DNA of 21,218 bases from a virus. Shown piece by piece: positions 2,438 through 19,262 of the stretch. Where the stretch lies: positions 1 to 21,218 of IMG/VR virus record IMGVR_UViG_3300031775_000423. One strand, given 5' to 3'. Numbering within the stretch: position 1 is the first letter of the stretch; each line of letters opens with the position of its first letter. Below the pieces are notes generated by a model. The model did no database searches. It had not been told where the DNA came from and was given only the letters and a program-made list of their open reading frames with translations. A program made the translations under genes and the position numbers.

Positions 2438-2445
2438 GGAGAATT

Positions 2446-3625: not shown

Positions 3626-4016
3626 AGGAATAACATGTGGTGCTTTTGATTTACTTCATGCAGGACATGTTGTAATGTTTGAAGAGGCTAAAGAGATTTG
3701 TGATTATTTATTAGTCGCTATACAAACAGACCCCTCAACTGATAGACCTAACAAACATAAGCCAGTTCAAAGTATTGTTGAAAGACAACTCCAAGTCAAA
3801 GCTGTTAAGTGGGTAGATGATACAATAGTATATCATACAGAAAAAGAATTAGAAGATATATTTAATACACTACCTATTGATGTGAGAATAATTGGGGAAG
3901 AATATAAAGAAGAACTATTTACTGGTAGAGATATCTGTAAGCAAAGAGGTATAGATGTTTATTACAATAAAAGAAAACACAATTTTAGTACAACTAAATT
4001 AAGGAAACAATTATGA
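3615..4016 (+). CDS. TagD-like nucleotidyl(cytidylyl)transferase
   Basis: This is a single-domain cytidylyltransferase of the glycerol-3-phosphate cytidylyltransferase type, about 133 residues. Residues 5-18 carry the N-terminal GITCGAFDLLHAGH core with the HxGH nucleotide-binding motif (15-18). The C-terminus ends in FSTTKLRKQL, matching the conserved ST-T-x-x-R segment that contacts the nucleotide. Such enzymes activate alcohol phosphates with CTP, for example for surface glycopolymer or lipid head-group synthesis. In a phage this could serve glycan modification, but the acceptor substrate is unknown. Starts at 3609 (GTG), 3615 and 3618 (ATG) are possible; an ATG close to the conserved core was preferred. 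It overlaps nrdB by 11 nt and the next gene by 4 nt. Confidence 0.85.
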   Translation: MMIRGITCGAFDLLHAGHVVMFEEAKEICDYLLVAIQTDPSTDRPNKHKPVQSIVERQLQVKAVKWVDDTIVYHTEKELEDIFNTLPIDVRIIGEEYKEELFTGRDICKQRGIDVYYNKRKHNFSTTKLRKQL

Positions 4017-4237
4017 AAAAGAAGGAAGCTGTCCTATTAGGATATAAATTCCTATACAATAAGTCAGGACAATTAATAACAGAAAGAACTACAACTGATA
4101 TTACTAAGTTAAAAAAGTTTTTAAAGAAGTATGAGTATGAATTATTACAGGTAATTATGAGAGAAGGTACAGCAAAATTAGATGCGATACACTCTGATAT
4201 AGAAAATCATATAAATGCTAGGAAAATGACTGACTAA
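4013..4237 (+). CDS. Small lysine-rich protein, unknown function
   Basis: A 74-residue ORF that starts in an ATGA overlap with the cytidylyltransferase gene. The protein is basic, with a central run of lysines and aromatic residues (LKKFLKKYEYELLQV) and a helical C-terminal half. No known family is recognised and there is no transmembrane segment. It is the last convincing gene of the plus-strand block. The reading frame continues open for another 35 codons after its TAA; see the entry at 4238. Confidence 0.6.
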   Translation: MKKKEAVLLGYKFLYNKSGQLITERTTTDITKLKKFLKKYEYELLQVIMREGTAKLDAIHSDIENHINARKMTD

Positions 4238-4345
4238 TTGAAAAACGACATCACAGAATGCCCGTGGTTGAACGAAGAGCTGTTAAGTAATACCTTATGT
4301 CCAGAAAGACATAAAATTCAACCACGAGCTTGTGTGTGGCTCTGA
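4238..4345 (+). CDS. Possible 35-codon cysteine-containing ORF (weak candidate)
   Basis: A TTG directly after the TAA of the previous gene opens a 35-codon frame ending at TGA 4343-4345. The peptide would contain ECPWLNEELL and LCPERHKIQPRACVWL, with three cysteines. It lies in the same frame as the 74-residue protein, so stop readthrough would add it as a C-terminal tail. No ribosome-binding site is clear, and the stretch uses more GC-rich codons than its neighbours. It also coincides with strong nested inverted repeats, which may be the real functional content. Treat it as an undecided alternative to a structured RNA or terminator region. Confidence 0.3.
   Translation: MKNDITECPWLNEELLSNTLCPERHKIQPRACVWL
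4263..4326. repeat. Nested perfect inverted repeats at the convergent gene boundary
   Basis: Outer arms CGTGGTTGAA (4263-4272) and TTCAACCACG (4317-4326) are exact reverse complements over 10 bp. Inside them, TTATGTC (4295-4301) and GACATAA (4308-4314) form a second perfect 7-bp stem with a 6-nt loop. A transcript could fold into a long stem with an internal hairpin. It sits between the plus-strand metabolic block and the minus-strand late operon. It may act in bidirectional termination, transcript-end protection or as a small RNA. It is not a tRNA: no T-arm or acceptor geometry was found on either strand. Confidence 0.6.
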
Positions 4346-4363
4346 TAGCATTTAGCTATTTTT
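4345..4363 (+). terminator. Weak intrinsic-terminator-like hairpin for the plus-strand block
   Basis: ATAGC (4345-4349) and GCTAT (4355-4359) form a 5-bp stem with loop ATTTA, followed by a run of T (4359-4363). It lies just past the last plus-strand ORF and abuts the stop codon of the convergent hsp20 gene. The stem is short and AT-rich, so it would be weak alone. It may work together with the stronger nested inverted repeats immediately upstream. Confidence 0.35.
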
Positions 4364-4775
4364 ACCCAGAAATTTTAATTTTCTTAGGCTTTTGCTCGTC
4401 TGGAATGTTTTTACTTAGTTCGATAAGTAATATTCCATCAGCAACCTTAGCTTTTTTAACTTCAACATACTCAGCTAGAGCAAATGATTTCCAAAATTCC
4501 CTTTCAGAAATTCCTTTATGAATAAATTCTATATCATCTTCTCTATCTCCATAGCATGCAGATACAGTTAAAGTATTATCTTCTATTTCAATATCAATAT
4601 CGGACTTACTAAATCCTGCCATTGCTATTTCAATAAAATATGTCTCACCTTTTTTAAGAATATTGTAAGGTGGATAGTTTGATTTAGGTATTGATGCTCT
4701 TTGTAATGTATTAAACATTTCATCAAACCCAACTGAGAACGGACTGAATTGTCCAAATGCTTTTATGTTTGTCAT
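4362..4775 (-). CDS. hsp20: Small heat-shock protein (Hsp20/alpha-crystallin, IbpA-like)
   Basis: This 137-residue chaperone has the IbpA-type N-terminus (SVGFDEMFNTLQ, residues 14-25), an alpha-crystallin beta-sandwich from about residue 33 to 124, including PYNI, IEIAMAGFSKSDI and the ADGILLIEL segment (A-x-x-x-n-G-x-L-like), and a C-terminal I-x-I motif (IKI, 133-135) that usually drives oligomer assembly. Hsp20 genes are frequent in large marine phages and are thought to help virion or replication proteins fold. It is the last gene of the minus-strand unit but has its own promoter and a leader that resembles a thermosensor. AGGAG at 4785-4781 lies 5 nt before the ATG. Confidence 0.95.
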   Translation of the reverse strand: MTNIKAFGQFSPFSVGFDEMFNTLQRASIPKSNYPPYNILKKGETYFIEIAMAGFSKSDIDIEIEDNTLTVSACYGDREDDIEFIHKGISEREFWKSFALAEYVEVKKAKVADGILLIELSKNIPDEQKPKKIKISG

Positions 4776-4826
4776 ATTAACTCCTTGTTAAAGCAAGTTC
4801 ATGAGTGCCGACCTTTCGCACACTCT
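4776..4826 (-). promoter_or_regulatory. Putative ROSE-like RNA thermometer in the hsp20 leader
   Basis: The predicted leader of about 51 nt has a first hairpin with arms GAGTG (4825-4821) and CACTC (4807-4803). A second hairpin masks the ribosome-binding site. In it, TTGCT (4796-4792) faces AGGAG (4785-4781) as U4791-A4786, U4792-A4785, C4793-G4784, G4794-G4783, U4795-A4782 and U4796-G4781, around the loop TAAC. The UUGCU element opposite the Shine-Dalgarno, with a G-G pair, is the hallmark of ROSE elements of alphaproteobacterial and enterobacterial small heat-shock genes. Heat would melt this hairpin and free the RBS. The match is by eye and has not been scored against the Rfam model. Confidence 0.55.
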
Positions 4827-4832
4827 TATTAT

Positions 4833-4860
4833 AGTATATAGTCTACTGCTTATTTGTCAA
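4833..4860 (-). promoter_or_regulatory. Sigma70-type promoter for hsp20
   Basis: On the minus strand a perfect TTGACA (-35, 4860-4855) is followed after 16 nt by TATACT (-10, 4838-4833). Transcription would start near 4826, leaving a leader of about 50 nt. The -35 box lies inside the last codons of the adenylate cyclase gene. Hsp20 can therefore be expressed independently of the long late operon, for example early by host RNA polymerase. A TATAAT further on (4832-4827) gives 22-nt spacing and is less likely to be the -10. Confidence 0.6.
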
Positions 4861-6651
4861 GAGTTTTGGGAAATAAATTGTTATAGGTTCTGACTTACCT
4901 TTAACTAAGATACTATCTATCTTTTCATAATCAAAAGAATCTTCTGCTAACTCTTTAGTATATTCAGATATAATAATCTTCCATTGTTTGTAATCATTTC
5001 TACCAGCAGTTGCTTCTAATCTAGCTGATAAGTTTACAGCATCCCCAACAACAGAATAATCAAATCTAGTTTCACTTCCCATATTACCAACAATACAAGT
5101 TCCAGAGTTGACACCAGTTCCTACATTGATAGGTGGTAAGTCTAAACCTTGTTCTTTAAATTGTTTGTTGAGTTCTAATGTAGCTTCTTCTATTTCTATA
5201 GCAGATTTAATTGCTAACTCTGCATGATTCTCACAAGGTAGAGGAGCATTCCAGAAAGCCATGATACAATCACCCATATATTTATCAATGGTCCCACCAT
5301 TAGCTAGTATAATCTTTGTCATCTTATCCAGATAAGTATTAATTAATTCTACTAAGCCTTCGGGGTCATCATTATTTTTAAAGACTTCTGATACCGGAGT
5401 AAAGCCCATGATATCTGTAAAGAGGAATGTCATTTCTTTTCTTTCTCCACCTAACTTTAAAAGCTCTGGATTCTTTTGAAGCATGGCAACCATATCAGGA
5501 GACAAGTAAGTTCCGAATTGTTTTTTAATTTGTTGTCTGAGTTTGAATTGAGTTCTAAAGTTTAAATAGAATTGTTGAGTTGCAATAAGTGTCATACTTA
5601 TTAAACTCCATGTTACATCAATTAAATATCCTAGCGATATAAAATAATAACCTGCCCCAGTTATCGATAGCATTGACATTCCGGCTAAGAATAAACCCAA
5701 GGTTATACCAAAATAATTTATTACGAAAGCTATTAATAATCCTGATAAGCATAATATAAATAATTCAACAAATAATCTGTAGTCGGGTATAGAAGGAGAG
5801 TCAATCAAAATACTTTCTGCAAGAGCAGCTTGTATCTTATGAGGCTCTAGTAATCCATTTGGTGTAGCTAATTGTGGCATTACACCAGCAGCAGTAACTC
5901 CAACAAATACAAACTTATTTGCTACATTCATTTCTTCTAATGTAGTTTGAGGTGTGTCCACCCAGCTAATCCACTTACGACCTAAACTATCTGTAGATAT
6001 AGGAGGTAATCCTCTAACTCTTATTTGTTCTATACCATTTTCATTTGTTTTAATTTGATAAGTTGTACCTTCAACCAATCCTTTTAAAACTTCTGTACCA
6101 AAAGAAGCCACCCATCCTTCTGGTGTTTGCTGTAATAAAGGTAATCTTCTTATAAGATTATCTACATCTACTTGTGCAGATACAGCACCTTGACTTGCAA
6201 CCTCTGTAAGTTCTTCTATGTTCTCTAAAAATCCGGAAGCTTTAGGTAAGTTTACATCCGGTCCAAGTATAACAGTACCATGAGTTTCTGGGTAAATACC
6301 ATTATTAAATTCAGGCATAGCTAATATACTTGTTCTATATTTTAATGCCTCAGCAAAAGCTTCATCACCACCAAACCTATCTGCCTGTGGAAAAAGGATA
6401 ACCCATCCTACTCCTGTTGCTCCTTCATTTAAAAGGTCTATATGTATCTCAGCTAAGTCCTGTCTTGGAAAAGGATAGCCACCTCTATCTTGTACATCTT
6501 CTTCTGTTATATTAAGTATTGTAAAATAGCCACTAGGTTCTGGAGTTGTAACAAGAGCATCAAAAGTTTTAAGTCTTAATACTTCTAGAGGACCAAAATT
6601 AAATAGTAATGGTAGTGTGAGTAACCCTAATAATGTAATTGCCCATTTCAT
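4843..6651 (-). CDS. CHASE2-domain class III adenylate cyclase (membrane sensor)
   Basis: A 602-residue membrane enzyme predicted to make cAMP from ATP. It has an N-terminal hydrophobic anchor (about 3-19), a periplasmic CHASE2 sensor region (about 25-290), three close transmembrane segments (about 293-315, 317-340, 343-362), and a cytoplasmic class III cyclase domain (about 400-595). Active-site residues are complete: metal Asp413 (FTDIMGF) and Asp461 (GDCIMAF), adenine-selecting Lys457 (TIDKYMGD) and Asp531 (FDYSVVGD), and transition-state Asn540 and Arg544 (AVNLSARLE). The Lys/Asp pair indicates an adenylate, not guanylate, cyclase. It begins 1 nt after the FecR gene stop, and FecR-CHASE2-cyclase pairs are a known bacterial arrangement. 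Such a sensor cyclase is unusual in a phage. Confidence 0.93.
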   Translation of the reverse strand: MKWAITLLGLLTLPLLFNFGPLEVLRLKTFDALVTTPEPSGYFTILNITEEDVQDRGGYPFPRQDLAEIHIDLLNEGATGVGWVILFPQADRFGGDEAFAEALKYRTSILAMPEFNNGIYPETHGTVILGPDVNLPKASGFLENIEELTEVASQGAVSAQVDVDNLIRRLPLLQQTPEGWVASFGTEVLKGLVEGTTYQIKTNENGIEQIRVRGLPPISTDSLGRKWISWVDTPQTTLEEMNVANKFVFVGVTAAGVMPQLATPNGLLEPHKIQAALAESILIDSPSIPDYRLFVELFILCLSGLLIAFVINYFGITLGLFLAGMSMLSITGAGYYFISLGYLIDVTWSLISMTLIATQQFYLNFRTQFKLRQQIKKQFGTYLSPDMVAMLQKNPELLKLGGERKEMTFLFTDIMGFTPVSEVFKNNDDPEGLVELINTYLDKMTKIILANGGTIDKYMGDCIMAFWNAPLPCENHAELAIKSAIEIEEATLELNKQFKEQGLDLPPINVGTGVNSGTCIVGNMGSETRFDYSVVGDAVNLSARLEATAGRNDYKQWKIIISEYTKELAEDSFDYEKIDSILVKGKSEPITIYFPKLLTNKQ

Positions 6652-6652
6652 T

Positions 6653-7765
6653 TTAATTACTTTGTTTAATTTTTATAGTTGAGGAACTTCCACCATTGAC
6701 TAAAATCTGTGTGCTCTTTCCATTCTGTATTAAGATAACAGTATAAGAAGCAGACTTATCTAAATCTAATCTTATAGTATCTTCTAATGATTTTAAAAAT
6801 GTAAGAACATTATCAGTAGTAAAAGTATTAACCTGAGTATTAGAATCAAAACCCATAGATGTGCCTTTCAAGTCTAGGTCTGCTTGAAGCATCGTTTCTG
6901 TTTGGTCAAGTTCATTTATATCTTCAATAATATCAAGAAGGTCTTCAAGAAAATTTACATCTAAATAATTTATATCTAACTCTGTAAATTCTAAATCATC
7001 ACTTACAAGATAGTCTACATCAAGGTCTTCAAACTCAAGATAGTCGACATCAAGTATATTACTACTACCAGCTTCTGAATATTGTCCAGAAACATCTGTT
7101 GTTTCCTCCGGTGGATTGACAATTAACATATTGTCTATTAAATTTAAAGTTATATCTAATATAACTGGTTTAGATGGTTCAGTCTCAAACATAGAAACTG
7201 TCGTAGCTTGATAAGGTCTATTGAGAATTACTTCTCCTGCTCCTGTAGCTACTAAGATTTCTCCACTAGGGGTACCATCTGCTTTAGGTAATAATATAAT
7301 TAAAGATTCACCTAGCTCATTAACTGTTAAGGTGAAGTCTGTTCCTCTAATAGAAACATTAGCACTTGGCGTACTAATAGATATGTTTTCTTTATTAATA
7401 TTATTTAATTTACCTGTGATAAACCTTGCAGTTCCACTAGTAAATTGAAGAGCCATCTTAGATTTAGATGGATTTGGGTCATATATAAATTCGTCAATAA
7501 CTAATTCTGAATGTTCTGTTAAGCGAACTTGTGTATTGTTAAGGAAGGTAATACCCATCCTTCCATTAGAAGTTTCTACATTATCATAGCTTTCTATATC
7601 TAAAGATAAGGCAGCATCATAAGGAGCTTGTTCCCTTACTACTCTGCCTTCTCCTTTTAACTCAGTTATATTTCCTATACTAGCATCCGACGCTTGTGCC
7701 ACCATCGTTTTGGATAACACAAACAGTACCAGAATCGCCAGTCGATTGAATTTTAAGCCAGTCAT
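6653..7765 (-). CDS. Secreted FecR-domain protein with acidic tandem repeats
   Basis: This 370-residue protein starts with a signal peptide (hydrophobic core LAILVLFVLSK, likely cleavage after VAQA near residue 25), which supports the start at 7765 despite a weak ribosome-binding site. A FecR domain spans about 55-155 and ends in the typical STPSANVSIRGTDF stretch. Residues 238-273 hold four LDVDYL-like repeats (LDVDYL twice, LDINYL, LDVNFL) in a very acidic region, and a beta-rich C-terminal segment follows. FecR domains are periplasmic sensor or scaffold modules, often next to CHASE2 cyclases. The first 86 nt overlap the end of the curlin-like gene in another frame. A periplasmic partner for the cyclase or the curli pore is inferred. 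Confidence 0.85.
   Translation of the reverse strand: MTGLKFNRLAILVLFVLSKTMVAQASDASIGNITELKGEGRVVREQAPYDAALSLDIESYDNVETSNGRMGITFLNNTQVRLTEHSELVIDEFIYDPNPSKSKMALQFTSGTARFITGKLNNINKENISISTPSANVSIRGTDFTLTVNELGESLIILLPKADGTPSGEILVATGAGEVILNRPYQATTVSMFETEPSKPVILDITLNLIDNMLIVNPPEETTDVSGQYSEAGSSNILDVDYLEFEDLDVDYLVSDDLEFTELDINYLDVNFLEDLLDIIEDINELDQTETMLQADLDLKGTSMGFDSNTQVNTFTTDNVLTFLKSLEDTIRLDLDKSASYTVILIQNGKSTQILVNGGSSSTIKIKQSN
7006..7054. repeat. 19-bp imperfect direct repeat inside the FecR gene
   Basis: CAAGATAGTCTACATCAAG (7006-7024) recurs as CAAGATAGTCGACATCAAG (7036-7054), with one mismatch and a 30-bp period. It encodes the first two LDVDYL units of the acidic repeat block of the FecR protein. 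The near-identity at DNA level suggests recent tandem duplication. Confidence 0.8.
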
Positions 7766-8396
7766 TATCTAAAGTGCTCAGTTGTTGTATATTGAAAGTT
7801 CTTGAATCGCCAGTTTGGTCAAGATAAAAATAACCACCAGCATATCCACTACCTGTAAAGGTAACAGTATTACTATCTCCATCAACATCAACATAAGAAG
7901 TACCACCATCATAATTTATATCAAAGTCTAATGTGTTACTACTTCCATTAATAATCCAGTCTAAGTCAGTATTACTTGCCATAGAGCTTGTTGCTACATC
8001 TAATGTAAAGTCATTACTATCTCCAGTAACATCGACATTAAAGTCTGAACTATCTGCACCATAGGTATCAGTCGGGTCAACCTGTATAGTAAATTCATTA
8101 CTGTTGCCATCAAACTCAAACCAAGCTGTAATATTATCTCCTAAGATATCTCCTAAGAATTTATTACTATCTCCAATTTGGTTAATGTCAAGAGTTAAAG
8201 TGCTACCATCTAAATCCAATGGTGTCATATTACCTGCTGTAGACTGTAAGCCACCTATAATATTAGCAGAACCTAATTGTTCTAAATCTATATTAGCTGT
8301 GTCTCCTGACTGGTCAATATATATTTCGTTATCAGCCCCGTATGTCGTCAATGCAGTCAACATCACAACTAGGCTCATTAATTTCAAATGTTTCAT
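7680..8396 (-). CDS. Curlin-like repeat protein, putative secreted amyloid subunit
   Basis: A 238-residue protein with a signal peptide (KLMSLVVMLTALTTYGA, cleavage near 21) and about nine repeat units. Their cores are QSGDTAN (29-35), QLGSAN (40-45), QIGDSN (73-78), DGNSN (96-100), TGDSN (124-128), NGSSN (150-154), DGDSN (172-176), QTGDS (194-198) and STGDS (218-222). Spacing is mostly 22-28 residues, as in curlin repeats (Q-x-G-x-x-N), with alternating hydrophobic residues (LTLDI, FTIQV, FTLDV). This fits a beta-solenoid amyloid of the CsgA/CsgB type, more acidic than E. coli curlin. Two cysteines lie near or at the C-terminus (226 and 238), which is unusual. It overlaps csgG by 65 nt and the FecR gene by 86 nt. 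It is the likely CsgG cargo. Confidence 0.75.
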   Translation of the reverse strand: MKHLKLMSLVVMLTALTTYGADNEIYIDQSGDTANIDLEQLGSANIIGGLQSTAGNMTPLDLDGSTLTLDINQIGDSNKFLGDILGDNITAWFEFDGNSNEFTIQVDPTDTYGADSSDFNVDVTGDSNDFTLDVATSSMASNTDLDWIINGSSNTLDFDINYDGGTSYVDVDGDSNTVTFTGSGYAGGYFYLDQTGDSRTFNIQQLSTLDNDWLKIQSTGDSGTVCVIQNDGGTSVGC

Positions 8397-9189
8397 ATTC
8401 CCAATACCCTCTTTCTATTCCTATTTCAATTAAATTAAATACACCTGACTCTATTGCCTTTTGCAAAGCTATAGAACCAGCCTCATTCTCAGCTATACCC
8501 CCTTCTATTTCCACGAGCTCGGTGCCCATTTCAATAAAACGAAATGCATCCTGAGAGATGCTTGTTGATAAAATATTTTTAGAAACTGTAGTCTCCATTA
8601 ATATTTCACCAGTCGATACAGAAACTAATCTTAATGATATAGTTACTACATCTTCCCTGTATTGCTTGCTACTACCTATTCCTAAGTACCTAGCACCAAC
8701 ACCACCAGTTTCAATATTTGTGTCGTAGCTAATTACTCCACCTTGTATTATAAGACCTGCAAATAATAAAGGTTGAAGCTTTGCATCTTCCTCAAAATTT
8801 TCTCTGGTTGACCTTACTAGTTGTCGTTCTTTGGTAAGATTATCTAATCCTACTCTTTCAACAACTCTAAAAAATTGTCCGTTAGCAGCATGTTTTAAAG
8901 CTCTTATAAGTAAAGCTTCTGGTGCTTGAGTAACTGCTGTACTAAATAAAGCAAAGCTGCTATTGCTTTTTCTTTGTCCTGTTAAATCTTGAAAGCTATT
9001 TGCATATACTGCAATGATAGGTCTTTGTTTGGCAGCCGGTAATTCATACAATTCTTTAGACTGTAATTCTAAAATTGTAGGTGTCTGTATCTTTTTTGTT
9101 AAAACTAAATCGCTGTTATTATTTAAAACTGCACAGCCACTAAAAAGTAAAGCTACCGATAGGCAAAGATATAGTCGTAGTGTTACCAT
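8332..9189 (-). CDS. csgG: CsgG-like outer-membrane curli secretion lipoprotein
   Basis: CsgG forms a nonameric outer-membrane pore that exports curli subunits. This 285-residue protein has a lipobox LLFSGC with Cys19, then close similarity along the whole family. Landmarks are DLTGQ-K (68-74), FSTAVTQAP (82-90), the first transmembrane hairpin region GGVGARYLGIG (162-172) and SLRLVSVSTGEIL (185-197), the second in SKNILS and FRFIE (203-220), and AIESGVFNLIEIGIERGYW (245-263). The constriction loop differs from E. coli: KSNSSFALFS replaces KPYPASNFS, so the Phe is kept but the Tyr and Asn are not, and the loop is one residue longer. A C-terminal CDVDC is an addition. It overlaps csgF by 50 nt and the curlin-like gene by 65 nt. 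Confidence 0.96.
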   Translation of the reverse strand: MVTLRLYLCLSVALLFSGCAVLNNNSDLVLTKKIQTPTILELQSKELYELPAAKQRPIIAVYANSFQDLTGQRKSNSSFALFSTAVTQAPEALLIRALKHAANGQFFRVVERVGLDNLTKERQLVRSTRENFEEDAKLQPLLFAGLIIQGGVISYDTNIETGGVGARYLGIGSSKQYREDVVTISLRLVSVSTGEILMETTVSKNILSTSISQDAFRFIEMGTELVEIEGGIAENEAGSIALQKAIESGVFNLIEIGIERGYWEYETFEINEPSCDVDCIDDIRG

Positions 9190-9619
9190 CTGAATCCGTA
9201 ATTGTTAAAGTTATTATTCCATCGACAACACTATACTCGATTGTATTGCCCTCTAAAGTTAATATACCACTATCACTAGGAGTTTCTCCAAATAAATTTT
9301 CTACTAACTGTCTTGATAGCTGTGCGTATATTCTAGATTCTAAGTTTCTTATAAATCTTGCAAGCGTTGTATTCTCTTTGTCTCTTTCTATCTGGTCCTT
9401 TAGAGCTTGAATCTCTTCTTTAATAGTTATTTTTCTTAAATGCTCTTGGTTCTCTATTGTAAGATAATGTGCAGAAGTTCCTATACCACTAAAGCTAGGA
9501 CTTTTAAATTTATGTACCATCTCATCTGCCGATAAGTTATGTATTGAAATAAACATAACTAATATACTCCAGAATGCCATGCATCCATAACAAATATTAT
9601 CAATCTTTTCTTTGGTCAT
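9140..9619 (-). CDS. csgF: CsgF-like curli assembly factor
   Basis: CsgF docks on the outer face of CsgG and positions curli nucleation. This 159-residue protein has a signal peptide (hydrophobic AFWSILVMFISI, cleavage near residue 31). The mature N-terminus DEMVHKFKSPSFSG matches the family's MTFQFRNPNFGG, the segment that inserts in the CsgG channel. The helix LARFIRNLESRIYAQL (86-101) corresponds to the conserved CsgF helix, and the C-terminus is a beta sheet (TIEYSVVDGIITLTITDSDG). It differs from E. coli CsgF by an extra charged helical stretch (about 57-84). Translation may also start at Met14. Its first 20 nt overlap the upstream holin-like gene. Confidence 0.85.
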   Translation of the reverse strand: MTKEKIDNICYGCMAFWSILVMFISIHNLSADEMVHKFKSPSFSGIGTSAHYLTIENQEHLRKITIKEEIQALKDQIERDKENTTLARFIRNLESRIYAQLSRQLVENLFGETPSDSGILTLEGNTIEYSVVDGIITLTITDSDGNTTTISLPIGSFTF

Positions 9620-10580: not shown

Positions 10581-11023
10581 TGACTTAAGATTACTTCTTG
10601 TAACTCAATGCTTCTACGACCTACTTGTTTAAACCATTTACTATCTTCCATTTCAACAGCCATCTTTTTCCAGTCGTGTTCTCTACATGCCTTTAACATA
10701 TTTTTAAATTTAGATAATCTAGTACCACCTAAATTAAAACACATATTAACTATTACTTCTTTTACTGCATCTGGTAAATCTCTAAACTCATCTTTACCTA
10801 CAACTTCTATTGCTTCAACAACATGCTTTGAAAAATCACTATCAAAATACATATCAACTACTTCTTGAGTTACAGCAGTTCCCACTTCCCAATTATATTC
10901 AGGGTCCTGTGGTTGACATAAATGTCCTATTCCTAAAGTTTTATAACCTAAACTATCTAAATAGATTTCTAGGACTTCACCTTCATGTCTTTTAATTTGT
11001 TCTTTACATTTATCTATGTTCAT
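10577..11023 (-). CDS. T4-type lysozyme (endolysin, glycoside hydrolase family 24)
   Basis: A 148-residue muramidase that cleaves the MurNAc-GlcNAc bond of peptidoglycan at the end of infection. The catalytic triad of phage T4 lysozyme is present with identical spacing: Glu14 (RHEGE), Asp23 (YLDSLG) and Thr29 (YKTLGIGH), matching T4 Glu11, Asp20 and Thr26. It has no signal peptide or signal-anchor, so export should need a holin, and two holin candidates lie just downstream. It starts in an ATGA overlap with the giant virion gene and ends in an ATGA overlap with the 48-residue gene. Confidence 0.95.
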   Translation of the reverse strand: MNIDKCKEQIKRHEGEVLEIYLDSLGYKTLGIGHLCQPQDPEYNWEVGTAVTQEVVDMYFDSDFSKHVVEAIEVVGKDEFRDLPDAVKEVIVNMCFNLGGTRLSKFKNMLKACREHDWKKMAVEMEDSKWFKQVGRRSIELQEVILSQ

Positions 11024-14000
11024 AAATCATCACTCCAAGTTACAAAATCATCGCCTAATTTGTAATCGACATCTTTAAAACCTCTCATTATTTTTTCAAT
11101 AGTATATCTTCTATATCCATAATCTCTTAATAATGTTCTAGCCTCTTTTACAGTTATATGACCATGAGTTAGCATCTCATATACATCGTCAGCTCGTACA
11201 TTAAACTTTGAAGATTCTGCAGCCTTAGATGATTTGCGTTTTAAAGTTTTTAAATACTCTGGGTCTAAATAACGAGTTCTTAGATTTACAGCAGACTTTC
11301 TTGACACACCTTTTTGTACTGTTTTACCTAAAGATTGTACTAAACCACCTACTACAAAAGGCTCTCTTAATCCTAGCCCTTCCATTTGACCTTTTAAAGC
11401 TCTATCTTCTTCATCCTCTAAAAATGCTATATTGTTATTATAGCGTTTACCTGTCAATTTGTCAATCCTTTCATCAGGTTCTTTTACTACATTCGGAACA
11501 TTATAAACTAAACCACCTTTATCAAATCCATACCTATCTTTCTTTCGTTTTGATTTTTTACTTTTACCACTACTACCTCTTGCTACCTTTCTTAGTTTAG
11601 CTTTAGTACCTTCACCAAAGAATATATCATATAACTGAAAATAAGGAAGATTACTTACACCTACTTCTGCAAAACCTTTACGATAAGCAATCATGTCTAT
11701 TACATCTTGGGGTAGAGGACCACCAATAGATTTTAATATCTCAGTAGGTAATCCCATTCCTCTTTCTCGTTGGTCTGCAAATCTTGCAGTATAATCAAAA
11801 GGACCTAAGCCACCCCATCTTCTCCATGCATCCATTATTACAGAACGAGTAGGTTTTTCTTCTCCAGTTGCATAGTCTATTTTAGCTTTACCATTACTTC
11901 TGATTTCATTACCTACATGAGCTACTGCAGTCATCATGAAAACAGTAGGTAAAAGCTTACCAGTTCTATACATTTCTTTTCTGCTTCCATCTTTAGCTAT
12001 ATCTCTAGCAAATTTTTTCAAAATAGTATTAGTAAATACTGTTGGGTAACCAGCAAATTGCATTAATAACTGAGCATTAGGATTTGAGAACCATAATGGT
12101 CTATTAGCTTCTTGGACACTTGGGTTTAGAATAATCTCTTTTGCAAACCTATTCCCACCTCGATTCATTTTTTGATAGAATTGTGCATTCTGTAAAAATA
12201 TTTTTCCTTCGCCTATTTCAAACTTTCCTGTTATACCTTTAGATAAGTTCTCATCAAACTGACCAGTTGCTTTATTTAAACTATTATTCCACCAAGTAGC
12301 AGCCTCTTTAGGTTCAATACCTAAATCTCTTAATTCCTCATTTATTAATTTTCTTCTACCAGAACTTAATTTATTTCCTAAGTCAGTTCTACCTGTAGCC
12401 AAAGCTCTAGAATGCTGTCTAATAATTCTTTTACCTGTAGTATAAGAAGCAAGTTGAACAGCTCTTGTCCATTGAGTTAGTAGGTTAGATTTAAAAAAGA
12501 AATTCTGTGCTGACTTCATTCCACTACCATGTAAAGCTTCTCCAGCTAATCCTTCAATTCTTTCCATAACAGTTTGTTCTAAAGCTAATCCAGTTTTATA
12601 TAATTCAAACCAGTCATCATCTGAAACCTGAGATATTTTATATTTTCCAGCATCCTCTTCAACACCTAAATGTTTTAAACTTCTTTTACCTTGTAAGACT
12701 TTTCCTCTGCCCATTTGTACATGTCTTACAGTACGAGACATTATATTTCCACCTTCATTAACTAAAGACTTACCAATAGTTTTTGCTGTATCAGTAGAAA
12801 AATCTCTAGTTAAAAGAATCATAGGTTCAGTTATACTAGAAAGTGTAGCTAATGGTAAATGAGCCATTTGTTGAGATAACTTTAATATATCTCCGGTCCT
12901 TCTACCAGCCGGTGTTCTAGCAAACCAACTATTTCTATGACTTTGGTCTACTCCTGTAACTCTACTAATCATTTTCATAAAGTCACCAGTAACTTTAGAA
13001 GCTTCATCTGCACTCATACCAGAAGATTCTAATTCTCTTCTAATAGGTTCAAAGATATCTTTTTTCAAGTCATCAATATTATTACCAAAATATCTAGACC
13101 TAGCCAATATTTGTGAAGCATTATTAAAATAATCTTGTGATACTCTCATAACATCAGTATCAACAAATTCATCTAATGAACTATCAGGTATTCTATTAAA
13201 TACTCTAGTATGTAAGAATCCTGAACTTTCTCCATATCTTTTATTTAATCCTTGTAATTCATATGGCACATGTCTTTTATTTAACATGTCATCTACGATA
13301 TGTCTAGCTTTAAGTCTTCTAGCATATTCATATAAGTCTACAGTTTCATTAGTTTTCTTTGTAAGATAATTATAAGGGCTTTCTTTACCAAAAGATATTC
13401 TAGTTTTTACTCCATTAATATTTGTATTAATATCCATTTTATCATCTATCTTATCTACTAGATATCTCCAAGATTGTTTCCAAGCTTCGTTACCTTTGTA
13501 ATCATTTTTCTTTAACCAAGCTTTAACTTCTGTACTACTAGAAATTCTTTTTCTTTGACCTTTACTTAAAGTGTCCCAGAACCATTTTCTAGCAGCAAGC
13601 TCTTCAAAAGAATTTGAACCAGTCTCTCTAAGATTTGCAAAAAGATTCCAGTCTCTTCCTTTAGAAGCTCTATGAGCTGCCTCACCTACATCCACCCATT
13701 CATCACCAACTTTTTGAACAAAATCTTTAAATGTTTCTATTTCATTACTAGGATTAGCATGGTTAGCTTTTACTATTTGTCTTTCTAAACCTACTCTATT
13801 TTTTTGTATAGCACTATGACTAAATTTTCTAGGGAAGTAACCTAATCTTTGTGGACCACCTTGTTTAAATAGTCCTTCCATCTTTGCTCTATCGTAAACA
13901 TCATCATATAATCCTCTTAATCTCGTATAACCAAAATACATTTTCTTATCTAATTCAATACCATTATGATTATAACCAATCTCTACTTTCTGCCAATTAG

Positions 14001-15714
14001 CTTTCCCTTTTTTTGAACCCATATTAACTAATATATGTTCTTCACCTGTGTATCTTCCATATCTTGGGTTAGGGTCACGGATGTCTGATAATAATTCTCT
14101 TTGTCTAAGAACTTGAATATCTTTACTTTGTAATAAAGTCTTCATCTTATTATTAGTTTCTTTAGTTATTACTTGTCTCCATCCAGTTAATCCTAAAACT
14201 CCAAAGGTTTGTTCTAACCCTACATGATATTTACCAATTAGTTCTCCAAAATATTCTCCATAACTTTGAGTTGTAAGTTGACTCTTAGGTCCATCTGGAT
14301 TCATTTCATCAGCATATTCTTTTCTTAACTTAGCACTTCCACCAGCAGAATCTAATCCTTGTGCTATTCCTTTATCAAAATCATTTCTTAATTTACGAAG
14401 ATTATTAGTTAATGTCGGAGATGCATTATCTTTTAATACATCAACAAATTTTTGTGTAGGTTTTTGTATGAATGTTCTTAAGAACCATGTCATTGGACTT
14501 ATTGCTTTACTGCCAATCTCACCTATTTTATCAGAGGCTTCTTTCCAATCTAAAAAGTTTGTACTATCTTCTTCATTAAATTTATTATGGACAGTTGAAT
14601 TAGCTCTAGATTCTGTTTCATGTCTTGCAGCCTCTTCTTTACGAGGATTTGGTTTAGTCTCTTTAGTCTGTTTAGGTTGTTCAACATCATCAAATAAAGT
14701 TCCTTGTCTCGGCGATGGTTGTTCACTACCTATTTTATAAAATGGCTTTTCGCCTAGTGGACCTACAAATACATCTACATTACCTTCTGCAGCGAAATCA
14801 AATTCTTTTTGTAATGTTTTAGAATATGCAGGACCTGCTAAATATCTACCAGCTACCCCACCAATAGCACCACCAAATGCTCCACCCATTAACATTGACT
14901 TTGTTATTCTATCTGCTTCTATATCATCTTGAAGACCTAGATTAATATCAATATCTTGCATAAAATAATCATGTAGTCCTGTCCATGCAGCACCTTCTAC
15001 AGCACCTACTTTAGCAAATCTTCTAGCTGCTTCATACTTAACTGATTTCTCAGCTTGTTCTTTAGTCCATCTTTTAGTTCCTTGTTTAGCAAGTTCCTTT
15101 ACTCCTTTATTAATAGCAGCTTGTGATACAGCTCTAGCTGAAAGACCAAAGCCTAAAGAACTACCAGCACTAGGAAGTGCTAACAAAGCAGTAAGCCAGT
15201 TAAGAGGGTCAAGAAGAATATCACCACCTAAATCTTTTATTAAACCTACTCGTTCTTTCCAGTTTCCAATTTCAGCATTATTAAATCTATTTCTTAAATA
15301 TGAATAATCTTGTAAAGTTTGTTCATCCCATCTCTTCATCTCAGCAGCTCTTTGTGCAGCAGAAGATAAACTAAAATTAGCATCCCTTAGATATTCATAT
15401 ATGTTCTCATCACGATTAATACTTTCCATAAATCGTTCTGCTGTATCAGCAAACTCGTCATCGTTTTTAAGTTGGGTTAAAGTTATTTTATTACCTAAAG
15501 ATTCTAAAGGTCTACGAGAGCTTTTTTCTAATGAGCTCTCTATGACATCTATAGTATTAGTATCTTTAAGACTTCTATCTGGAATCTCAGGGACAAGAAA
15601 GTTATTATGTGCTTGTAACTTTCTTTCTTTTTCTAGTAGTTCTTCTTCTTTAGCTCGTTGCTGATTTCTTTTAATAGCTTCCCAAGTTAAACTACCTGCT
15701 CTTTGTAATGCCAT
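11020..15714 (-). CDS. Giant internal virion protein (1564 residues)
   Basis: A very long structural protein in the position of the T7 gp16-type internal core protein, which is ejected ahead of DNA and helps span the cell envelope. An N-terminal basic helix is followed by small-residue-rich hydrophobic stretches (about 165-205, and 275-292 GGAFGGAIGGVAGRYLAG) that could insert in membranes, then a Pro/Lys/Glu linker (about 330-370) and a long mixed helical region. The C-terminal part has a lysine/serine patch (SSGKSKKSKRKK) and a KEPDERIDKLTGKRYN segment that I recall from C-termini of marine podovirus internal proteins. No transglycosylase motif is visible here; that domain is encoded by the frameshifted gene upstream. 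An AAGGA site precedes the start at good spacing. Confidence 0.75.
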   Translation of the reverse strand: MALQRAGSLTWEAIKRNQQRAKEEELLEKERKLQAHNNFLVPEIPDRSLKDTNTIDVIESSLEKSSRRPLESLGNKITLTQLKNDDEFADTAERFMESINRDENIYEYLRDANFSLSSAAQRAAEMKRWDEQTLQDYSYLRNRFNNAEIGNWKERVGLIKDLGGDILLDPLNWLTALLALPSAGSSLGFGLSARAVSQAAINKGVKELAKQGTKRWTKEQAEKSVKYEAARRFAKVGAVEGAAWTGLHDYFMQDIDINLGLQDDIEADRITKSMLMGGAFGGAIGGVAGRYLAGPAYSKTLQKEFDFAAEGNVDVFVGPLGEKPFYKIGSEQPSPRQGTLFDDVEQPKQTKETKPNPRKEEAARHETESRANSTVHNKFNEEDSTNFLDWKEASDKIGEIGSKAISPMTWFLRTFIQKPTQKFVDVLKDNASPTLTNNLRKLRNDFDKGIAQGLDSAGGSAKLRKEYADEMNPDGPKSQLTTQSYGEYFGELIGKYHVGLEQTFGVLGLTGWRQVITKETNNKMKTLLQSKDIQVLRQRELLSDIRDPNPRYGRYTGEEHILVNMGSKKGKANWQKVEIGYNHNGIELDKKMYFGYTRLRGLYDDVYDRAKMEGLFKQGGPQRLGYFPRKFSHSAIQKNRVGLERQIVKANHANPSNEIETFKDFVQKVGDEWVDVGEAAHRASKGRDWNLFANLRETGSNSFEELAARKWFWDTLSKGQRKRISSSTEVKAWLKKNDYKGNEAWKQSWRYLVDKIDDKMDINTNINGVKTRISFGKESPYNYLTKKTNETVDLYEYARRLKARHIVDDMLNKRHVPYELQGLNKRYGESSGFLHTRVFNRIPDSSLDEFVDTDVMRVSQDYFNNASQILARSRYFGNNIDDLKKDIFEPIRRELESSGMSADEASKVTGDFMKMISRVTGVDQSHRNSWFARTPAGRRTGDILKLSQQMAHLPLATLSSITEPMILLTRDFSTDTAKTIGKSLVNEGGNIMSRTVRHVQMGRGKVLQGKRSLKHLGVEEDAGKYKISQVSDDDWFELYKTGLALEQTVMERIEGLAGEALHGSGMKSAQNFFFKSNLLTQWTRAVQLASYTTGKRIIRQHSRALATGRTDLGNKLSSGRRKLINEELRDLGIEPKEAATWWNNSLNKATGQFDENLSKGITGKFEIGEGKIFLQNAQFYQKMNRGGNRFAKEIILNPSVQEANRPLWFSNPNAQLLMQFAGYPTVFTNTILKKFARDIAKDGSRKEMYRTGKLLPTVFMMTAVAHVGNEIRSNGKAKIDYATGEEKPTRSVIMDAWRRWGGLGPFDYTARFADQRERGMGLPTEILKSIGGPLPQDVIDMIAYRKGFAEVGVSNLPYFQLYDIFFGEGTKAKLRKVARGSSGKSKKSKRKKDRYGFDKGGLVYNVPNVVKEPDERIDKLTGKRYNNNIAFLEDEEDRALKGQMEGLGLREPFVVGGLVQSLGKTVQKGVSRKSAVNLRTRYLDPEYLKTLKRKSSKAAESSKFNVRADDVYEMLTHGHITVKEARTLLRDYGYRRYTIEKIMRGFKDVDYKLGDDFVTWSDDL

Positions 15715-15716
15715 AT

Positions 15717-16478
15717 TTAGTCCTTATATCCCGGATAATATTTTAGTAAATTTCTTTCAATATTCTTATCCTTACCTAGTGCATATTTTATTTTTTTAAT
15801 AGGACCCATATTCTTATTTCCTGCATCAGTATGATGTGTTAATTCATAAATTCTTTTTGCAGCTAGGGCTTGCTCTTTAGAACCGGGAGCTGCACTATAA
15901 TAATTCCACATTAATTCAGTACCTAAACCATCTTGCTTTACACCATCTATAGAAACAGGTCGTTCTATTAAATTTGAGAAAGCTAATAAAGTCTGCGAAG
16001 TAGGAGATAATCTAAGAATATCTATTGCCTCTAATCCCTCTGACATTATTTCATCATATAATACCTGTACATCATTAGGTACTTCATAGTCTCCAAACTT
16101 AGAATTATTAACAAGTCTTACAACTGCTGTCTTAGTTGTTTCATCAGTAAATTGAAAAACTCCTTTTGCAGTTGAGTCAGGGTTGGTTGCAATAAGTGGA
16201 TTACTTTCACCACCACTTTCATTAGATGCAATAAAGCTTATTAGAGTATCAGTTGCTTTATTTGTTTTATCATTAAAAGGAATGGGAGCAAAGCCTGCAG
16301 AAACAAATACATTATTCATTCTCCTCTGGTAATTACTTAATTCCTCTCTAGTATTTTCATCGTATAGTGGAGTATTTTGGATATCTTGTCCAAATATATC
16401 ATCCTTAGTTACATTAGCCCATTTGTCAGGTGGTGTAAAAGGTAGAGAGCTAGTATCTCCTGTCTCTACCTTATCTAC
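15717..16478 (-). CDS. Lytic-transglycosylase domain, reached by -1 frameshift from the 717-residue gene
   Basis: This is the -1 frame continuation of the upstream virion gene. From G16478 it reads 53 codons (VDKVETGDTSS ... REELSNYQRR) and then the 200 residues beginning MNNVFVSAGF. There is no ATG, GTG or TTG in the first 53 codons, yet they look coding. The ATG at 16319 has its AGAGGAG only 1 nt upstream, too close for efficient initiation. Residues 25-70 after that Met resemble an SLT/lysozyme-like fold, with catalytic Glu34 in SNESGG, then NPL and STAKGVFQFT. In the fusion this Glu would be about residue 804 of 970. It would digest peptidoglycan during DNA entry, as the transglycosylase part of T7 gp16 does. 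A stand-alone 200-residue product from 16319 is the alternative. Confidence 0.75.
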   Translation of the reverse strand, partial: VDKVETGDTSSLPFTPPDKWANVTKDDIFGQDIQNTPLYDENTREELSNYQRRMNNVFVSAGFAPIPFNDKTNKATDTLISFIASNESGGESNPLIATNPDSTAKGVFQFTDETTKTAVVRLVNNSKFGDYEVPNDVQVLYDEIMSEGLEAIDILRLSPTSQTLLAFSNLIERPVSIDGVKQDGLGTELMWNYYSAAPGSKEQALAAKRIYELTHHTDAGNKNMGPIKKIKYALGKDKNIERNLLKYYPGYKD

Positions 16479-16496
16479 TTTTTTCCAGCAACCTCC
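16441..16496 (-). promoter_or_regulatory. Programmed -1 ribosomal frameshift signal
   Basis: Minus-strand elements in order: Shine-Dalgarno-like GGAGG (16496-16492), 7 nt, slippery heptamer A AAA AAG in frame (16484-16478), stop TAG (16477-16475) inside a 7-nt spacer TAGATAA, then an 8-bp perfect stem GGTAGAGA (16470-16463) with TCTCTACC (16448-16441) and a 14-nt loop. This is the same set of parts as the E. coli dnaX frameshift site: upstream SD, A AAA AAG and a downstream hairpin. The -1 frame entered at G16478 is open through to the transglycosylase stop at 15717. Confidence 0.88.
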
Positions 16497-18628
16497 GGAG
16501 CTTCAAGGCTCCCGTAGTCTTTAATCATTTTTATTCGGTTTAAATATTCGTTTCTACTACCTTGATTTTGAGTACTACCTAATGTCCTAGGTACTGACAC
16601 TTGTGGGAAATAATATGAGTCACTCCAATGATTGATATCAAGATTCATTGTTCCTCTTTTATTCATAACCTCTGACCATTTATCTACAGGCATATTATAA
16701 TCGGGTCCTAAGTCAGCACCAAATATTACTGCTCTAGCTGAATCATCTGCTAGCCATCTCTGATACTGATTAACATCCACAGTACCCATAATTGGATGAG
16801 GAATACTTTGAGTAAACTCATTATATATATCTACTAAATCAATCTGATTTTCTACCTCTAGATTACCAATATTCATAAGAGTAGTATGCCATACTTGAGC
16901 TTGTTTCTGAGGACTTAACTCACTCCAACCTCCACTACCATCTCCCTTAACATCATTATTTAAATGCCATCCCTTTTTATCTACATAAATATAATTATTT
17001 TCTGCGTGAGCCATTATATTATTATGAGTATTATAACCTCTAGGTACAGAATATTTATCAAATCTATCAACTGTGTCTGTTTCGAAATCATATCCTTCAT
17101 GAGCTTGAACTCCCTCACTATAGAAACCTTCTCGCATTAACATTCTAGAAGCTATTATTATTCTACCTTGTTCATCAGAAGCAAATCTATCATATTCTAC
17201 CATAGCAGATTCATCATTACTTTCGAATCCATTTAAAGTTCCTACCATATTACCATAGATTTGTCTGTATTTTTTCGGGTCTAATTCCATGGCTATAGCT
17301 AATTTAGCTGTGTCTGTATGGAATGCCTTTAGTTCAAGCTCACCTAAATCATCTGAATATCTGTCAGCTCTCCTCCAAATCATACGCCATCCTAAACCTT
17401 TATGAGTCTGATTTTCTCCTTCATAAGTAGGCACCGACATATGAACTAAAGCACTAGCTGTTATCTCTTCTCTGGTTCGATTTCCGTACAAAGCTTTATA
17501 TGTAAAGTTCTTAGCAGAAAGTAAACCTTGTTCTTTATAATCGTCATATTGTGTATATGGTGTATAATCTTCGTCTACTTGTAACTCTAATTCCAATAAA
17601 CTCTCTCGGCTTAATCCGGGTAAAGTATTACTTTCAAATTCTTGTAATCTATTATTAACACTATCATATACAACAGAAGATAAATTCATTTCAAATTTTC
17701 CTTCTAATGGGTCTCTATTAAATAACCAGTCTGCTTTACTTGAACTTTCAAACATATTAGGAGTTGTATCATCCTTCCAAGCTCCAAGCTTTCTAGCTCC
17801 ATCAATAACACCACCAATTAATCCTTTATCATAATTTTCAGTTCCCCATCTATCTATATAAGCTGCTTCTACTCTACTAACATCCATAGGAGTTATACCT
17901 TGTGCTCTACTTAAAAATTCTTCGGCAGATTTGTCCCTATCAGGACCTTTTAAATTAAATAATTCTAATCCGTTATCAATAAAATTTTCATATTGAGGTC
18001 TATAAGGTTCTCCTTCCTTAGCTACATTTTTATAATAATGATTAGCTATATCCATACCATGAAGTTCCAGTACCTTTTCATAATCTTTACTACCTACAAA
18101 TTCCTCATATCTACGAGGATTCATTTTCTTTTTTAATGCTTCATCAAATGGAGCACGAAACTGTAAGGCAATACTTCCTATTCTATCACTATCATGTAAG
18201 TAAGCACTCCTAACTTGTGATTCAGAAAGTTCTGATATATCTGTATCACCATAATAAAATTTTAATTCCTCTGGATTGTTTTTAAAATTTAAGTAATCTT
18301 GACCTTCCCATAGATTTAAATTATCGAAATCAACGAAATGTTTTACTGCTTCTGAATTAGTTCTAAATTGAGAAGCCTGAGCTTCATCATCACCTCTTTC
18401 CCATACTTTTTTTTCTTCTAATTCAGCTAATCTTCTTTTCTTAGCATCTTTAGTAATAGCTACACCTACACCAATTAATCCTAAAACATTTTGAATCCTT
18501 GCCTGCTTCTTAGCTTCTTTTGCTGCTTCTGCATTTAATCTAGCTTGTCTAGATAATAAGGAACTACCTATGTCTTCTAAAGACATATTATCCATATTCG
18601 AAACTAAATTTCCTATTTCATCTGCCAT
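16475..18628 (-). CDS. Internal virion protein, 717-residue frame-0 product (gp15-like size)
   Basis: A 717-residue, soluble, mostly helical protein in the structural block; I recognise no family by motif. The N-terminus is a basic/alanine-rich helix (SRQARLNAEAAKEAKKQAR, about 26-44) followed by a small hydrophobic patch (VLGLIGVGVAITK, 48-60). The rest is rich in Asp, Tyr, Trp and Glu. Size and place, just before the giant protein, resemble T7 gp15. AGAGGAG lies 6 nt before the ATG. Its end is exceptional: the final codons GGA AAA AAG TAG are a frameshift site that would append 253 residues with a lytic-transglycosylase domain, giving about 970 residues in a fraction of molecules. Confidence 0.8.
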   Translation of the reverse strand: MADEIGNLVSNMDNMSLEDIGSSLLSRQARLNAEAAKEAKKQARIQNVLGLIGVGVAITKDAKKRRLAELEEKKVWERGDDEAQASQFRTNSEAVKHFVDFDNLNLWEGQDYLNFKNNPEELKFYYGDTDISELSESQVRSAYLHDSDRIGSIALQFRAPFDEALKKKMNPRRYEEFVGSKDYEKVLELHGMDIANHYYKNVAKEGEPYRPQYENFIDNGLELFNLKGPDRDKSAEEFLSRAQGITPMDVSRVEAAYIDRWGTENYDKGLIGGVIDGARKLGAWKDDTTPNMFESSSKADWLFNRDPLEGKFEMNLSSVVYDSVNNRLQEFESNTLPGLSRESLLELELQVDEDYTPYTQYDDYKEQGLLSAKNFTYKALYGNRTREEITASALVHMSVPTYEGENQTHKGLGWRMIWRRADRYSDDLGELELKAFHTDTAKLAIAMELDPKKYRQIYGNMVGTLNGFESNDESAMVEYDRFASDEQGRIIIASRMLMREGFYSEGVQAHEGYDFETDTVDRFDKYSVPRGYNTHNNIMAHAENNYIYVDKKGWHLNNDVKGDGSGGWSELSPQKQAQVWHTTLMNIGNLEVENQIDLVDIYNEFTQSIPHPIMGTVDVNQYQRWLADDSARAVIFGADLGPDYNMPVDKWSEVMNKRGTMNLDINHWSDSYYFPQVSVPRTLGSTQNQGSRNEYLNRIKMIKDYGSLEAPEVAGKK

Positions 18629-18629
18629 C

Positions 18630-19262
18630 TTATTCTCCTCTGTCTAATAAACTTTTCATATCTCCAGTAGGTTTAGGTCTTTGTAATATACTCTGTTCTA
18701 CTTTTTCAACATTTAAATTATCTAATTGTGTTCTAATATCTTTACCAACAGCCATTGGATTTATATTTCCTTTAGGCATAAGCTTCTGTCTTCTTCTATT
18801 TAACATCTGCTCAGGTATTGGTCCAGCATTTCTAGGGTCAGTAGTAGGCATTCCGACATCATCATCATCAAAATCTCTATCGTTATCTTCGCCATCTACT
18901 ATAGGTCTAATACCTGATTTCTCAGCTATAGCCATTAATATAACCATAGTAGGTTCCATTAATTGCATTAACATATCTGGATTGAAAGCACCTTCTCTGA
19001 ATCCTTGAGTTAATAAAACTTCTGCAATAGTATTAACAGGAATTTTATTTATCATTAATTTTTGTACACTTTCTATTCTATCAGGATGTGTTAAGTCAAA
19101 AAATATTTTTTCTCTTGCATCTTTAACAGAAGTAAACTTAGGTGCTTCTTCCCAAGGTGCTCTGTTACTAGGGTCATTAGTTAAAGATTGTCCCGGAACA
19201 GGACCTTCAAACATATACTGTTCCATATCTGATGGAACTTGTTGTCTATCTATATTATCCAT
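18630..19262 (-). CDS. Virion-associated protein, unknown function (210 residues)
   Basis: This protein starts 8 nt inside the end of the preceding gene with a strong GGAGGAG site, and ends 1 nt before the next start. The N-terminal region has a proline-rich PVPGQSLTNDP and a NRAPWEEAPKF segment, then a helical part (about 45-120) with LLTQGFREGAFNPDMLMQLMEPT and VILMAIAEKSGI. After that comes an extremely acidic stretch, DNDRDFDDDDVG (about 126-137), and a basic tail. I recall similar PGQSLTNDP...PWE...NPD-M-M-L-EP proteins in marine phage structural clusters, but with no assigned function. A virion or assembly role is inferred from location. Confidence 0.65.
   Translation of the reverse strand: MDNIDRQQVPSDMEQYMFEGPVPGQSLTNDPSNRAPWEEAPKFTSVKDAREKIFFDLTHPDRIESVQKLMINKIPVNTIAEVLLTQGFREGAFNPDMLMQLMEPTMVILMAIAEKSGIRPIVDGEDNDRDFDDDDVGMPTTDPRNAGPIPEQMLNRRRQKLMPKGNINPMAVGKDIRTQLDNLNVEKVEQSILQRPKPTGDMKSLLDRGE

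Follow-up and report, generated by a model that had tools for sequence, protein, structure and literature searches.

The window analysed here is the whole 21,218-base stretch of the virus record IMGVR_UViG_3300031775_000423 (open reading frames, or ORFs, read from sequence alone). On its minus strand it contains a junction at which a 717-codon ORF, the body of a middle ejection-type virion protein, ends at a slippery heptamer, and an overlapping -1 frame continues through a linker into a lytic transglycosylase (SLT) domain. On balance we favour the reading that -1 ribosomal frameshifting at this junction still yields some 970-residue fusion (717 + 253 residues) beside the 717-residue body. All the components of an efficient -1 signal of bacteria are present at the junction, and the SLT domain has no good independent start codon in the window. 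Because the body and the SLT domain share a single frame in a sister virus and in the wider family, a frameshift would recreate the ancestral form of the protein.

The 3′ end of the 717-codon ORF (18628-16475) reads GGA AAA AAG TAG. An X_XXY_YYZ heptamer thus lies in the 0 frame ahead of a stop with the -1 frame open, and it is accompanied by a Shine-Dalgarno (SD)-like element upstream and a structure downstream, both at suitable spacing. The initial annotation of this DNA had described a GGAGG, 7 nt, an in-frame A_AAA_AAG and an immediate stop, and all of these were re-read at 16496-16475 of the minus strand. It had also placed an 8-bp perfect stem after a 7-nt spacer; the perfect stem stands, while its dimensions had to be corrected to 10 bp beginning 5 nt from the heptamer (16472-16463 paired with 16448-16439), the 8 bp being the inner part. 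The predicted stability of this hairpin is -14.7 kcal/mol with a z-score of -3.76, and none of 200 dinucleotide shuffles equalled it. With thresholds chosen when the junction was already known, the combination of an SD-like element of 5 nt, spaced by 4-14 nt, with a hairpin of -10 kcal/mol or lower was found at 3 of 3209 codon positions in five genes of the ejection region (4 of 3209 with a 4-nt element), and two of those three positions belong to this junction, the third being 20254. The heptamer alone is not rare, with four in-frame copies of A_AAA_AAG in 6881 codons, two of them in the body gene. Combined with stimulators, A_AAA_AAG is reported among the most efficient frameshift motifs in E. 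coli (PMC4066793).

Reading of the -1 frame bore out the earlier statement that it is open for 53 codons before its first Met, with no ATG, GTG or TTG between 16478 and the ATG at 16319. The SD-like GAGGAG stands 1 nt from this ATG, whereas the body start at 18628 has AGAGGAG 6 nt upstream, and both spacings were seen as first described. We hold it very improbable that the SLT domain is a separate protein made from the ATG at 16319 by reinitiation or translational coupling: such an ATG exists and has GAGGAG directly upstream, but the spacing is just 1 nt, the stop of the 717-codon ORF lies about 155 nt upstream, relatives encode the SLT domain in the frame of the body, and 53 linker codons would go unused, yet they match the protein of the sister virus. 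As a candidate, a separate SLT gene is disfavoured by the start context of this ATG. The -1-frame segment and its counterpart in the continuous gene of the sister are 72% identical in amino acid sequence. The coordinates of the junction and of its neighbours are compiled in the table.

Features of the junction region of the window, with the evidence for each
Feature	Position	Strand	Evidence
717-codon ORF, body of middle ejection-type virion protein	16475..18628	-	homologue in sister L002 89% identical; gene order
GGAGG, SD-like, 7 nt 5′ of heptamer	16492..16496	-	also in L002
Slippery heptamer A_AAA_AAG, in body-ORF frame	16478..16484	-	L002 without heptamer at corresponding place
TAG, 0-frame stop, adjoining 3′ side of heptamer	16475..16477	-	sequence
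Hairpin, 10-bp perfect stem, starting 5 nt 3′ of heptamer	16439..16472	-	folding
-1 frame after shift, 253 codons plus stop (15719-15717), linker then SLT	15717..16478	-	ORF reading
ATG, earliest start codon of -1 frame, 53 codons in	16317..16319	-	GAGGAG, SD-like, 1 nt upstream
SLT (lytic transglycosylase) domain	15783..16271	-	Pfam, PHROG and profile matches, all weak; limits from iterated profile
Candidate catalytic Glu codon, E87 of 253-residue segment	16218..16220	-	invariant in 12 aligned sequences
1564-codon ejection-type protein, next after SLT	11020..15714	-	PHROG 7348 (3e-34) and 6958 (2.4e-13), virion/endolysin PHROGs

The lytic transglycosylase domain that the initial annotation had assigned to the -1 ORF was recognised, weakly. 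Pfam SLT (PF01464) matched the 200-residue ORF with 16.0 bits (E 0.009), below the gathering cut-off of 21.3, and PHROG 4067 (‘transglycosylase’) matched the window segment at E 7e-4; for the equivalent segment of the sister, the Pfam search gave no SLT match and PHROG 4067 was reached at E 0.012 only. Searches with a profile of 12 SLT sequences gave E 0.002-0.006 for MltE and for phage gp144. Residues E87, S88 and Q109 are invariant across the 12 aligned sequences, and this Glu-Ser pair with a following Gln is what we take to be the key residues of the SLT family, from which we infer a catalytic role for E87. With the AlphaFold model of the segment (mean pLDDT 72), the ten best matches in the Protein Data Bank (PDB) were lytic transglycosylases, weakly matched at E 0.03-0.7 and a TM-score of about 0.25, and the fold search returned nothing at E 0.001. 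The 717-residue body had no significant match in Pfam, PHROG or phage tblastn, including no homology to gp15, so its role is read from the gene order in relatives, p391-p210-body-(module)-p1564, which makes it probably a protein ejected into the host. The product of the 1564-codon gene remotely resembles particle proteins from phages of Pseudomonas and Vibrio.

A search with the window SLT domain returned two viral contigs. The first, L001, represents the same virus; it has the same junction, but with about 16.6 kb matching the window exactly it provides no evidence of conservation. Differences are confined to the first ~460 bases of L001 (1-460), where 29 substitutions and 15 gap positions relative to the window give the impression of a different strain. 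The second, L002, is a sister whose DNA is 91% and 97% identical to the window in two blocks. In L002 the body and the SLT domain form a single continuous 982-codon gene without the heptamer, and relative to that gene the frame break consists of five extra A's in the window. L002 retains the GGAGG, and its form of the stem has 8 bp and a stability that is ordinary for its composition (-10.5 kcal/mol, z -0.76, equalled by 39 of 200 shuffles), so that the hairpin is more stable in the window, where the heptamer is present. We consider it quite improbable that the true run has seven A's and that the split is a sequence or assembly error: A runs are prone to indel errors, and seven A's would restore one open frame like that of L002, but the two viral contigs agree (a weak point, given that the two hardly differ and perhaps have reads or method in common) and the other genes of the window look unbroken by eye. 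When substitutions were assigned to lineages with L041 as outgroup, 8 SLT residues had changed in the window lineage only and 10 in L002 only (7 and 10 with L041 and L085 as outgroups), and the body had 10 such changes in each. As the window SLT domain has not changed faster than that of L002, it shows no sign of decay or relaxation, although the numbers are small.

Relatives were gathered by a conserved motif of the 1564-residue protein, which gave at least 100 viral-contig stretches plus flanks from 16 more regions, and the comparison set comprised 57 middle ORFs including that of L002, five of them truncated at the 5′ end. The SLT domain was detected in 16 of the 57 by a profile that had been iterated from the sequences of the window and L002; because of the iteration the most distant calls (e.g. 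L057, L088, L110 and L152) are less certain, and the SLT domain of L148 was also matched by Pfam at E 0.0019. The domain is in frame with a long body in 14 of the 16, and the contigs of the other two (L071 and L110) end 57-64 codons upstream; L085, which begins within the SLT domain, was left out of the 57-ORF count. That the two ORFs of the window belong to one protein, as first proposed, is thus confirmed by L002 and 13 further relatives, and with L002 continuous and the SLT domain joined in 14 of 16 genes, the joined gene is most simply ancestral and the split of the window derived. Six middle ORFs end instead in a GH24 lysozyme, as detected with a profile made from these same six sequences; five pass the Pfam cut-off, whereas L028 scores 21.1 against 22.3 bits. 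An unassigned third type of C-terminal end, grouped by eye, is seen on the middle ejection protein of L099, L141, L140 and L092, and Pfam gave no match on the C-termini of L099 and L092. Among annotated phages there was no close relative by DNA, nor by tblastn of the SLT domain or the body at E 0.001, and the L002 segment searched at E up to 10 gave a single irrelevant match; among genome contigs, none of 48 stretches found by pattern was a relative.

The layout of a split with a heptamer is common to no relative except the near-identical L001, and in this respect the description of the junction as a ‘textbook’, conserved frameshift fails; the closest relative, L002 (91-97% DNA identity), is continuous and free of the heptamer, which is what the initial annotation had itself named as contradicting it. 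The proposed frameshift therefore stands as regards a single protein, a signal of the efficient type and the lack of a good SLT start, and falls as regards conservation. As judged from these relatives, the window cassette is a lineage-specific derivative and not a conserved textbook element, and since it is not conserved we liken it to a programmed -1 frameshift signal, in that it works like one, and do not class it as such.

Several observations weigh against frameshifting in the window. The cassette is not conserved, one independent sequence carrying it, and the efficiency of A_AAA_AAG, reported for E. coli, may depend on the host and its lysine tRNAs. Since L002 has the GGAGG and the weaker stem but no heptamer, these two elements could be older than the slip site and coincidental. 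Linker residues have changed slightly more often in the window (5) than in L002 (2; outgroup L041). As many as 35 of the 57 middle ORFs, including the body of L146, match neither the SLT nor the GH24 profile, many of them 550-690 codons long and some with an unassigned C-terminal module, so that loss of the wall module from the middle protein seems tolerated. There is also a second split, in L146 (record G020, oriented 693-3328), into 714 and 176 codons, of which the second part matches the SLT end of the relative L144; its join has no slippery heptamer of the searched classes and no start codon for 50 codons. The break in L146, judged by eye, is a short deletion relative to L057.

Taken together, the five extra A's, the elements shared with L002, the ORFs that match neither profile and the unrelated break of L146 at the same boundary without a heptamer speak for an accidental frame break, in which a recent indel in a variable, A-rich linker left a body that works alone and an SLT frame that is a young relic, the signals being coincidental. 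We regard such an accident as rather unlikely, because the heptamer, the SD-like element and the strong hairpin coincide at this very place, where two of the three SD-plus-hairpin positions fall, because the SLT domain shows no excess of change, and because the split is present on two contigs, though near-identical ones. Under -1 frameshifting, the reading that we prefer, an ancestral middle ejection-type gene ending in an in-frame SLT wall-cutting module would have had its frame broken within the linker at A_AAA_AAG in the window lineage. Most ribosomes would terminate at the TAG to give the 717-residue body, and a fraction of them, paused by pairing of the GGAGG with rRNA and by the 10-bp hairpin, would slip by -1 on the two lysine codons to give the 970-residue body-SLT fusion. 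The analysis shows the sequence elements, the homology and the fusion in the sister and the family; slippage in the host, its level, the entry of both forms into the virion and the ejection role are inferred.

The linker in which the window is split carries an exact run of ten A's (A10) in nine related records (L043, L046, L048, L049, L064, L069, L088, L099 and L148). The phase of the tract is constant, xAA AAA AAA AAy, coding [EQ]-K-K-[KN]. Seven of the tracts, corresponding to 7 of the 16 SLT-bearing genes, sit 29-45 codons upstream of the SLT match and the remaining two precede an unassigned 240-residue end, whereas A10 is absent from all six GH24 middle genes; the window slip site is farther from its SLT match, at about 71 codons. 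These nine are the only runs of at least 10 A or T in 103 loci (849,603 bases), and they fall in middle ORFs (29,929 codons), against none in other ORFs of at least 100 codons (244,206 codons). When the string class [EQK]KK[KN], picked after the tracts were seen, was counted, 9 of its 16 occurrences in middle ORFs were A10, all nine in the linker, while outside middle ORFs codon usage predicts 13.5 of 24 as A10 and none was observed. Fisher's test for the enrichment gives 4e-5 by strings and 2e-9 by codons, both values ignoring relatedness. The nine records form four body clades (17-41% identity between clades, 63-83% among group 1 members), the bodies of L043 and L099 are identical across the compared stretch, and counted by clade the support comes to four cases, or perhaps three should group 1 and L099 have inherited a single tract. 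Of the 39 lysine columns shared in group 1, 28 have AAA in every member, and conservation of the two AAA codons alone is not significant; a single column has AAG throughout and is taken, from the tract sequences, to be the codon that ends the tract.

Bacterial RNA polymerase is reported to slip efficiently on runs of 9 A or T (PMC5009743), and a run of at least 9 is present in the A10 of all nine records, while the window tract with its six A's falls short of this. A slip of one base in either direction reaches a stop within about 10 codons in the eight A10 cases read (L148 not among them), and slippage would release the body without its C-terminal module. In the five group 1 genes the A10 is followed by G, which creates an in-frame A_AAA_AAG at which a -1 shift would also truncate the product. 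Since the predicted downstream folding is mostly weak (0 to -3.8 kcal/mol in L064, L049, L069, L048 and L046; -8.5 kcal/mol in L088), we prefer polymerase slippage to ribosomal -1 slippage at the A10 tracts. The tracts may reflect selection for slippage, or they may be tolerated because a truncated body would still work. With several relatives having A10 in the same linker, slippage there is probably tolerated or put to use by this family of phages, and the tracts of the nine records hint that a logic of two forms, one bearing the wall cutter and one lacking it, as the initial annotation had proposed, is more plausible than it would appear from the window alone.

Comparable genes are found in cultured Pelagibacter phages, of which 17 records match HTVC203P gp47. 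The gp47-like gene was examined in HTVC203P, HTVC024P, Greip, Skadi-4, -2 and -6, part of Skadi-8, HTVC100P and HTVC035P. In Skadi-4 the gene ends in a lysozyme (Pfam 6e-8), and in Skadi-4, -2 and -6, whose genes are identical, an A10 coding EKKN lies 56 codons upstream of the lysozyme match. HTVC203P has an A9 ahead of an SLT-like end for which there was no Pfam match. HTVC024P, which has the clearest SLT end (Pfam 7.6e-25), has only an A8 near the boundary, which counts against a general A10 rule. In Greip, HTVC100P and HTVC035P the gene encodes a shorter product of 709-749 residues, and runs of A9 or longer are absent from the region of its end; HTVC035P has one in the middle of the gene. 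As the genomes of Skadi-4 and HTVC203P hold other such runs (10 and 5 runs of at least 9 A or T, respectively, the tract included), the tracts of the Skadi phages and HTVC203P are weaker evidence and suggestive only. In Pelagibacter phage Baldr (OQ414636; L159), an A10 at 3866, the only run of at least 9 in an 8.4-kb stretch, lies 135 nt upstream of an SLT-like match (4001-4396) in the early part of a very large protein. The deposited linear record of Skadi-8 (OP131296; L161) has its first base within the A tract that precedes the lysozyme domain, and assembly may have broken at the run.

Elsewhere in the window, the late region at 4362-9619 of the minus strand encodes CsgG (Pfam 1.5e-51), CsgF (2.1e-17), FecR, a CHASE2-adenylate/guanylate cyclase, Hsp20 and a repeat protein that had no match in the Pfam search and presumably resembles curlin. 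Relatives of the CsgG are found in Pelagibacter and Methylophilales phages and in one short Salmonella phage record. Codon evolution was compared pairwise only. Between the window and L002/L005, single-change codons were non-synonymous versus synonymous in a ratio of 52 to 15 in the 717-codon body and 37 to 8 in residues 1-832 of the 1564-residue protein. Against the sister, the ejection genes (window 11020-19262) have dN/dS of 1.1-1.3 and the linker 0.7. Changes were mostly synonymous in curlin (0/17, non-synonymous to synonymous), CsgF (0/8) and the cyclase (4/25) and mixed in CsgG (10/13), FecR (5/13) and the lysozyme (4/1); the control pair L064/L069 gave 88 non-synonymous versus 126 synonymous. 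Such a pattern is suggestive of diversifying selection on the ejection module.

Among known systems, the tail-assembly chaperones G and GT of phage lambda (named in PMC4256274) differ from the window in that they are not part of the virion and have a widely conserved slip site. Their likeness lies in the short and long forms of a phage morphogenesis protein produced by frameshifting. E. coli dnaX shares with the window the A_AAA_AAG site and a long and a short product, and in the apparently reversed dnaX of a few bacteria the stop adjoins the site and the long form arises by frameshift, as would be the case here; in Thermus dnaX the short form is made through RNA-polymerase slippage on a 9-base run within one ORF, as the A10 relatives would do (all described in PMC5009743). 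The dnaX product is a polymerase subunit and not a virion protein, and its recoding is reported as shown in E. coli and Thermus (PMC5009743), whereas that of the window is predicted. In TssM of the Citrobacter type VI secretion system (T6SS) and Yersinia tssM3, a poly-A tract is the source of a longer and a shorter version of a protein of an envelope-crossing machine, slippage yielding the long form in one species and the short form in the other; the machine is a different one, and Citrobacter uses transcriptional slippage on A11, while the window has only six A's (PMC4256274). With so short a run, ribosomal slippage is the likelier route in the window than transcriptional slippage, and by analogy dnaX and TssM show the same kind of interchange between recoding routes. 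Phage coat proteins, such as those of T3 and A2, are virion proteins on which a C-terminal domain is optional and comes from frameshifting; that domain is Ig-like as opposed to an enzyme on an ejection-type protein (PMC5009743). The gp15 and gp16 of T7-like phages are similar in carrying a wall-hydrolase domain on an ejection protein, which swaps between gp16 and gp15 homologues, and differ in that the main text of PMC8954989 makes no mention of a frameshift. A Campylobacter phage methyltransferase gene is broken in a poly-A tract, for which its authors suggest rescue by transcriptional slippage; it is not a virion protein, and no use of two forms is proposed in that account (PMC2853527).

A wider and more tentative proposal, to which we give somewhat less than even credence, is that the boundary between body and wall module is a site of recoding in this family, with polymerase slippage at A10 in several clades and -1 frameshifting in the window lineage, and that virions would contain module-free subunits with a limited number of cutter-bearing ones, in a ratio determined by slippage. 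No report of recoding at a junction of an ejection protein and a wall module was found in the open-licence literature, surveyed mainly from search listings. The idea is testable in the cultured Pelagibacter phages of the Skadi group, which have A10 upstream of a lysozyme domain in a comparable protein. If it is true, the dose of a virion wall-cutting enzyme would be set by slippage and not by a separate gene, as are the subunit ratios of dnaX and TssM, and this would suggest how an ejection protein, perhaps one that forms a ring, may bear a bulky hydrolase on some of its copies only.

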